A stretch of 64,000 nt of DNA from Janthinobacterium sp. J1-1 (GTDB lineage Bacteria > Pseudomonadota > Gammaproteobacteria > Burkholderiales > Burkholderiaceae_D), in assembly GCF_030944405.1 (NCBI RefSeq), contig NZ_CP132339.1:1240001-1304000 (forward strand), written 5' to 3'. Positions 30,063 through 30,283 of the stretch are shown piece by piece. Within the stretch, counting starts at the first letter, position 1; the number at the start of each line of letters is the position of its first letter. The position numbers and the translations under genes were made by a program. The notes under the pieces were generated by a model that had not been told where the DNA came from, did not search any database, and was given only the letters and a program-made list of their open reading frames with translations.

Positions 30063-30283
30063 CATGCGGTTGGTGGTGTTGCGAACAACATCGACCGCTG
30101 TCAAAATTCTTGATAGGCATATCAAGACCGGGTAACTGGATGCCGTATCCGCCCTTAGGCTCAAAGCCAGCGATGTAGATCTCGCACCAGTTACCCACCC
30201 TCCATGTCAAGATCGGACAGTATCTTTGGCACCGGCACGCCGGTAGCCCGCATTCACAAGGTAGATCGCAAGAGGACCACAGC
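30063..30283 (+). ncRNA. Probable bridge RNA of the IS110 element
   Basis: The non-coding left part folds, by eye, into the parts known for IS621 bridge RNA. The first is a 5' stem-loop (30066-30098; 15 bp with one mismatch). The second is a target-binding loop closed by GGGTAACTGG/CCAGTTACCC (30130-30139 with 30187-30196), with an inner hairpin GGCT-CAA-AGCC. The third is a donor-binding loop with inner hairpin ACCGG-CACG-CCGGT (30231-30244). In the target loop, ATCCGCCCT (30147-30155) matches target ATCCGACCT at 8 of 9 positions, and ATGTAG (30173-30178) pairs with target CTACGT with one G-U. In the donor loop, ACAGTATCT (30217-30225) is identical to the right IS end, and ACAAG (30256-30260) pairs with CTTGT at the left end. 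Exact RNA ends are inferred. Confidence 0.78.

Follow-up and report, generated by a model that had tools for sequence, protein, structure and literature searches.

What directs an insertion sequence to the ends of REP palindromes in Janthinobacterium, and how can it persist there when the guide that it encodes misfits the occupied repeats at one letter? The question is raised by a 64,000-nucleotide stretch of Janthinobacterium sp. J1-1 DNA (referred to as the window, G000:C1:1240001-1304000, in a genome of 6.95 Mb), in which positions 30049-31261 are an IS110-group insertion sequence, a relative of IS621 and of ISCro4, the host of the latter being Citrobacter rodentium. The evidence collected below (features in Table 1) gives a probability of roughly 0.94 that the element is a bridge-RNA-guided member of this group. 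Bridge-RNA targeting itself has already been described, and the Janthinobacterium element adds a member; only one thing about it is unusual: across related species, the guide disagrees with the occupied repeats at one identical letter. A literature search returned no paper title on a Janthinobacterium bridge RNA, and the supplements of PMC11208160 may hold such loci among thousands.

Table 1. Features of the insertion sequence and its target site, in window positions.
Feature	Position	Strand	Basis and remarks
Left target positions 1-9, ATCCGACCT	30040-30048	+	REP palindrome end; core CT at 30047-30048
IS110-group insertion sequence	30049-31261	+	1213 bp with one CT core; ends from comparison of 13 copies and the empty site in relatives
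5' hairpin of the RNA	30066-30098	+	MFE fold; lies 5' of the part covered by R1
Second hairpin, 5' of the target loop	30108-30127	+	MFE fold
Bridge RNA core	30109-30266	+	held-out covariance model R1, 150.1 bits, E 9.1e-38
Target-binding loop stem, 5' arm	30130-30139	+	perfect 10-bp complement of 30187-30196; covarying helix 1
Left target guide, ATCCGCCCT	30147-30155	+	mismatch to site at position 6 (30152)
Right target guide, GTAG	30175-30178	+	complement of CTAC, which stands at all 13 own sites
Target-loop handshake bases, AU	30179-30180	+	complementary to donor positions 7 and 6; IS621 numbering from the available text of PMC11208158
Target-binding loop stem, 3' arm	30187-30196	+	reverse complement of 30130-30139; covarying helix 1
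Left donor guide, ACAGTATCT	30217-30225	+	identical to right end 31253-31261
Right donor guide, AU...CACAAG	30252-30260	+	complementary to CTTGTAT over the left end; numbering from the available text of PMC11208158
Donor-loop handshake bases, GU	30261-30262	+	could pair with target C7 and A6; inferred
IS110 recombinase, 319 aa	30284-31243	+	PF01548 2e-26; PF02371 1.2e-24; NF033542 3e-67
-35 box, TTGACG	31240-31245	+	right end, overlaps stop codon; in a circle would face -10 TATTAT at 30051-30056
Right core CT and right target AC	31260-31263	+	CTAC at 13 of 13 copies

DNA, protein and guide-pattern searches found 13 copies of the element, 1212-1214 bp long, in its own genome, and the protein search matched the recombinase over its full length in 11 of these and partially in the other two (residues 1-276 and 62-319). 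The non-coding parts measure 235 bp 5' and 18 bp 3' of the gene, the long-left, short-right layout of the IS110 group, and an RNA in the right end, as in the IS1111 group, is absent from this 18-bp stretch. Only CT is common to both ends, which corresponds to the short-core insertion of the IS110 group, free of any longer target duplication. Domain searches and alignment place a DEDD RuvC-like domain ahead of a Transposase_20 domain with the catalytic serine, again as in that group. The recombinase aligns without gaps with those of IS621 (8wt6, E 8.3e-102) and ISCro4 (9t56, E 7.2e-102), ISCro4 being about as close by score. Its residues D7, E56, D98, D101 and S237 align with D11, E60, D102, D105 and S241, the catalytic residues of IS621 according to the available text of PMC11208158, on the assumption that the 8wt6 chain numbering runs two ahead of native numbering. 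Because a DNA search of E. coli genomes with the Janthinobacterium element gave no match, the comparison with IS621 was made by protein and published description only.

The target site is uniform, TAAYCCGACCT preceding the element and AC following its right CT at all 13 copies. A first-pass annotation of this DNA had named copies at sites unrelated to the guides as evidence against its proposal; none was found, every copy lying at the REP end that it predicts. CTAC is followed by G in nine copies, C in two, A in one and T in one, and the next base is T in five. The same genome offers 108 further free TAAYCCGNCCTNC places; among the 100 of them that were listed, position 6 is A at 98, G at two and the guide's C at none, and free TAAYCCGACCTAC, counted among the same 100, occurs at least 84 times. 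The other half of the REP unit, TAAYCCGACAAC, which lacks CTAC, is present 61 times and carries no element copy. Sites of better guide fit (AYCCGCCCTAC) number only five, all free, below the 10 of a reversed control pattern, and we make no claim that A6 sites are preferred to them. Within the recombinase gene, ATCCGACCT followed by TG occurs at window 31221-31229, probably as a coincidence of coding sequence. Proteins of the Y1-transposase family accompany REPs, and a single match to this family (PF01797, 31.4 bits) at G000:C1:132180-132467 (L212) is a candidate REP-associated transposase.

Empty sites were read beside the gene left of the element, which we take to be lpxC, in 30 loci of the genus, the gene end being located in 25, window included. 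At the orthologous place, TAAYCCGACCTAC stands in seven other loci of these 25. Five of these seven relatives (L151, L156, L167, L169 and L174) carry an uninterrupted TAATCCGACCTACGTGCTG, which is the left flank of the window joined to its right flank, and L170 carries it with one change; L155 has an altered REP end, and the remaining 15 loci have no such REP end there.

Regarding the RNA, the first-pass annotation had drawn from the letters a 5' stem-loop, a loop closed by a perfect 10-bp stem and a second guide loop with its own hairpin. All of these return in the fold of 30064-30275 (-74.6 kcal/mol, z -2.6, two of 200 shuffles as good), the 10-bp stem as an exact reverse complement within covarying helix 1, together with a second hairpin ahead of the target loop that the annotation had missed. 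Alignment of 30 homologous non-coding regions, none from Janthinobacterium, yielded a consensus of 23 pairs, 15 of them with changes on both sides. Paired cells amount to 97.1% and drop to 25-47% in slid structures. Covariation was scored by five measures: double-change cells number 111 versus a shuffled mean of 34.2, a value reached in none of 500 shuffles, so that the stems do covary, a point on which the annotation had made its proposal depend, and two of the five are weaker, namely pairs with a double change (15 versus 12.6, reached by 22 of 500 shuffles) and further pair types (34 versus 31.5, reached by 46 of 500). The covariance search suggested at that time was performed with R1, built from this alignment, whose sole match at E up to 1 in the 64 kb is the bridge RNA core and whose 13 matches in the genome are the 13 element copies (150 of 3031 first-look candidates scored). 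A structured RNA with target- and donor-binding loops, as in the IS110 group, is thereby recognised by a model of our own; Rfam at gathering score gave six matches in the window and none at the element. Elsewhere in the window lie a cobalamin riboswitch (56077-56311), RNase P RNA (7257-7596) and ribosomal RNA genes with two tRNAs (59241-64000).

Within the target loop, the left guide equals the left target at eight of nine bases, just as first described. Taken alone, this likeness is weak and chance-prone evidence, since 2.3% of first-order Markov resamplings contain an 8/9 match to the site at some point of the non-coding part; the same match combined with a downstream GTAG and an exact ACAGTATCT arose in 0 of 20,000. 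The right target guide had been proposed as ATGTAG (30173-30178) pairing with CTACGT (31260-31265), of which GTAG/CTAC stands at all 13 copies; the two extra pairs are not supported, the six-base pairing being partly due to chance, and a six-base guide is rejected, the bases after CTAC varying among the own copies. In the donor loop, the stretch said to repeat the last nine bases of the element is indeed identical to them. The pairing of ACAAG (30256-30260, and at three more places inside the gene) with CTTGT (30047-30051) across the left end is likewise present, and the guide proved longer than had been thought, with A30252-U30253 also able to pair with donor A13-T14; a discontiguous right donor guide of this pattern is published for IS621 (available text of PMC11208158). 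The likeness to the split-guide logic of IS621, which the annotation had recognised, extends to the same CT core and the same anatomy.

Stronger tests than this letter match are provided by the 13 genomic copies, the empty sites, the held-out model R1 and the covariation of guide with site among homologues. For the last of these, guides and left flanks were read by motif, loci with an unreadable guide or left end being dropped (including relatives at 32-46% identity), and were collapsed by hand to 42 guide/site rows from diverse genera, in which 25 guides and 28 sites are represented. Over guide positions 1-7, 273 of the 294 letters agree with the element's left flank, with 11 further wobbles, versus a shuffled mean of 155.8 (standard deviation 8.4, maximum 195 in 100,000); among the 33 distinct guide-site pairs, 212 of 231 positions are exact, versus 116.8 when shuffled (maximum 151). 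This result is strong, but it is no strict probability because the 42 rows have common ancestry. By row, 25 are perfect, eight differ by wobble only, eight have one other mismatch and one (L063) has more, and in 11 of the 42, five of them from Janthinobacterium, the guide is matched better by some other site in the collection than by its own. Most rows keep the right guide GTAG and the site CTAC, L094 being an exception. The guide thus covaries with the target between lineages, as in the IS110 group, and is near constant within Janthinobacterium. The comparison of each flank with its own guide, which the annotation had proposed for relatives, bears out the match between lineages and fails at position 6 within Janthinobacterium, where none of 50 left ends matches. 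In an account that dispenses with guidance, the recombinase itself would recognise the REP hairpin, with the RNA structural or regulatory and its likeness to target and donor incidental; such an account is compatible with the almost constant guide and site within the genus and with a guide that carries a mismatch, but is rendered extremely improbable by guides that change with their sites between lineages, perfectly or with wobbles only in 33 of the 42 rows, and by the unused REP half-sites lacking CTAC.

The misfit at position 6 was followed through 40 genomes of the genus with a guide pattern allowing any base at that position, which guides differing elsewhere would escape. It matched 51 guides in eight genomes, with C6 in 50, G6 in one (L040, in G030) and A6 in none; the readable left ends number 50, two G015 guides having one in common. 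A C6 guide stands at ATCCGACCT at 47 of these 50 and at ACCCGACCT, which adds a U:G wobble, at two, and the G6 guide stands at ATCCAACCT at one, so that every one of the 50 sites in the eight genomes has A6. Over 1212 positions, L040 (G030:C1:2961182) shows two differences from its sister L046, at guide position 6 and immediately behind the CT of the guide, and the sites of the two differ as well.

One way to remove the misfit is to suppose that copies were moved in trans by a better-fitting RNA of another element, the own guide having had no part in choosing the site. A pair in one Undibacterium flavidum genome is suggestive of this: its two copies, L063 and L069 (at the places also labelled L075 and L077), have different left guides, and the L063 guide ACCCGCCCT misfits its own site GCACACCCT, which the L069 guide GCGCACCCT fits with one wobble, possibly reflecting trans action or a change of guide after insertion. 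For the Janthinobacterium copies this origin is nevertheless very improbable, since the genus search gave no A6 guide among its 51 matches (guides with other surrounding letters would escape it) and R1 revealed no RNA outside the 13 copies of the genome among the candidates scored.

Guidance by the element's own bridge RNA is retained, and the mismatch is to be read within it. The Aromatoleum anaerobium element L080 has the same nine-base guide at an own site ATCCGCCCT, a perfect match, and the separate lineage L085 shows the same C6/A6 combination as Janthinobacterium. We conclude that the guide suits a ATCCGCCCT site and that the Janthinobacterium element lives with one mismatch. The annotation had offered tolerance or a different preferred REP variant as alternatives; both are kept in sharper form, tolerance likely describing the state now and the different preferred variant the history. 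The best explanation of the mismatch is that the guide suits ATCCGCCCT and persists because a single mismatch is tolerated and because REP ends of the occupied kind abound in the host, with at least 84 free TAAYCCGACCTAC. Counting against this, screens of IS621 are reported to show low mismatch tolerance (available text of PMC11208160). Non-wobble mismatches at positions 1-7 among the 33 distinct pairs number 1, 1, 2, 0, 0, 3 and 1, and an excess at position 6 is not claimed, three being too few.

A different cause for the same letter would be selection, either with U30262 of the donor loop reading A6 or with a weak position 6 helping the bottom strand to leave the guide, and this is considered unlikely. 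A related reading, just as improbable, is that guide and site need not agree at position 6, the clade having reached its roughly 50 sites in eight species despite a non-wobble mismatch because the left guide does better to leave that target base unread, a handshake base of the donor loop meeting it instead during strand exchange. The constancy of A6 at all 50 left ends despite guides with C6 (49) or G6 (one), the ability of U30262 to pair with A6 and the recurrence of C6/A6 in L085 are in accord with selection. The handshake GU, however, is present in 30 of 30 aligned homologues, including those with site C6, and thus shows no covariation; the pairing of U30262 with A6 is an idea based on the numbering in the available text of PMC11208158. 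Moreover, A6 needs no other cause because the REP ends of the host offer A, rarely G, at this position (100 listed of 108), and non-wobble mismatches at position 6 occur in just three of the 33 distinct pairs. Tolerance of one mismatch by a guide suited to another REP variant remains the preferred explanation.

The two ends of the element also carry the halves of a promoter. Across a circle junction, TTGACG and TATTAT would be separated by an 18-bp spacer in the window copy, and among 32 distinct junctions read there are 25 in which 17 bp separate TTGAC from TATTAT or TATTGT. Among these 32, TTGAC was not found at the junctions of L083, L087, L091 and L125; L087 is represented by two junction rows, one from a false left end, and the spacer of 15 in L098 stems from an early pattern match. 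A sigma-70-like junction promoter, as in the IS110 group, is thus predicted from sequence. Briefly, by analogy with IS621, from which transcription, RNA binding, circle formation and catalysis are all carried over, the element would excise as a circle, joining the right-end TTGACG to the left-end TATTAT and so creating a promoter that would drive the RNA of about 30063-30270. The target loop would then pair with both strands of a REP end, the left guide with the bottom strand of ATCCGACCT and GTAG with CTAC, and the donor loop with the two strands of the junction in the circle (ACAGTATCT/TGTAT), whereupon the recombinase would exchange strands at the common CT core.

Copies within the genome differ far more in the enzyme than in the RNA. 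L012 and L013 differ from L001 (the 13 copies being L001-L013) at 138 positions from the gene onward and at two in the non-coding part; overall, the RNA regions of the 13 copies show 0-3 differences and the recombinase genes are up to about 14% apart, whereas species with comparable divergence in the gene are mostly 4-10% apart in the non-coding part. Given this near-identical RNA beside diverged genes, two recombinase lineages have probably exchanged or homogenised their RNA regions. L011 is a mosaic among the own copies, and a weaker case of the same kind is provided by G018 and G006, with about 1% difference in the non-coding part versus 12% in the first half of the gene. A 176-bp derivative at G030:C1:741377-741552 (L209, G030:C1:739966-743200) consists of the left end and the target loop and ends at the donor guide ACAGTATCT, directly followed by a target-like AC; the DNA of the donor guide itself has apparently acted as a right end, via the recombinase or a deletion between 9-bp repeats. 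No further derivative ending at the donor guide was found in the 385 family genomes, this one being confined to a single genome. In L210 (G015:C1:128900-129500), a tandem duplication lies in the target-loop region, with gaps nearby in the scaffold, and may be a misassembly.

The first-pass annotation is borne out in both observation and interpretation, with small corrections. Taken together, the element is an independent natural test of bridge-RNA rules in betaproteobacteria, with site, empty site, fold, covariation and promoter as IS621 predicts. The fixed mismatch at position 6 offers a ready case for gauging the strictness of guide pairing, which matters for the use of these recombinases as tools, and the near-identical RNA region in two diverged recombinase lineages suggests natural reshuffling of guide cassette and enzyme.

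Among known systems, ISEc21, of IS110 type, and the seekRNA elements of IS1111 type have a non-coding RNA that matches both strands of the target over short stretches, the RNA of IS1111 members usually lying downstream with the guide order reversed (available text of PMC11187229); the Janthinobacterium RNA precedes its gene, which is the IS110-type arrangement in that source. The likeness to ISCro4 (PDB 9t56) is judged from the recombinase alone, which is about as close in sequence score. With IS621 of E. coli, the element shares the recombinase family, catalytic residues, CT core and an RNA in the left end, as well as the two split-guide loops, the discontiguous right donor guide, the junction promoter and a REP target, as far as the available texts of PMC11208160 and PMC11208158 describe them. 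It differs in its REP sequence, in a recombinase of 319 aa and in the number of hairpins preceding the target loop, two against the one of the consensus in the available published text. A standing mismatch between guide and target is itself a trait of IS621, whose guide encodes ATCGGGCCTAC and whose natural site is ATCAGGCCTAC (available text of PMC11208160), the mismatch of IS621 being a wobble at position 4 and that of the Janthinobacterium element an rC:dT at position 6.
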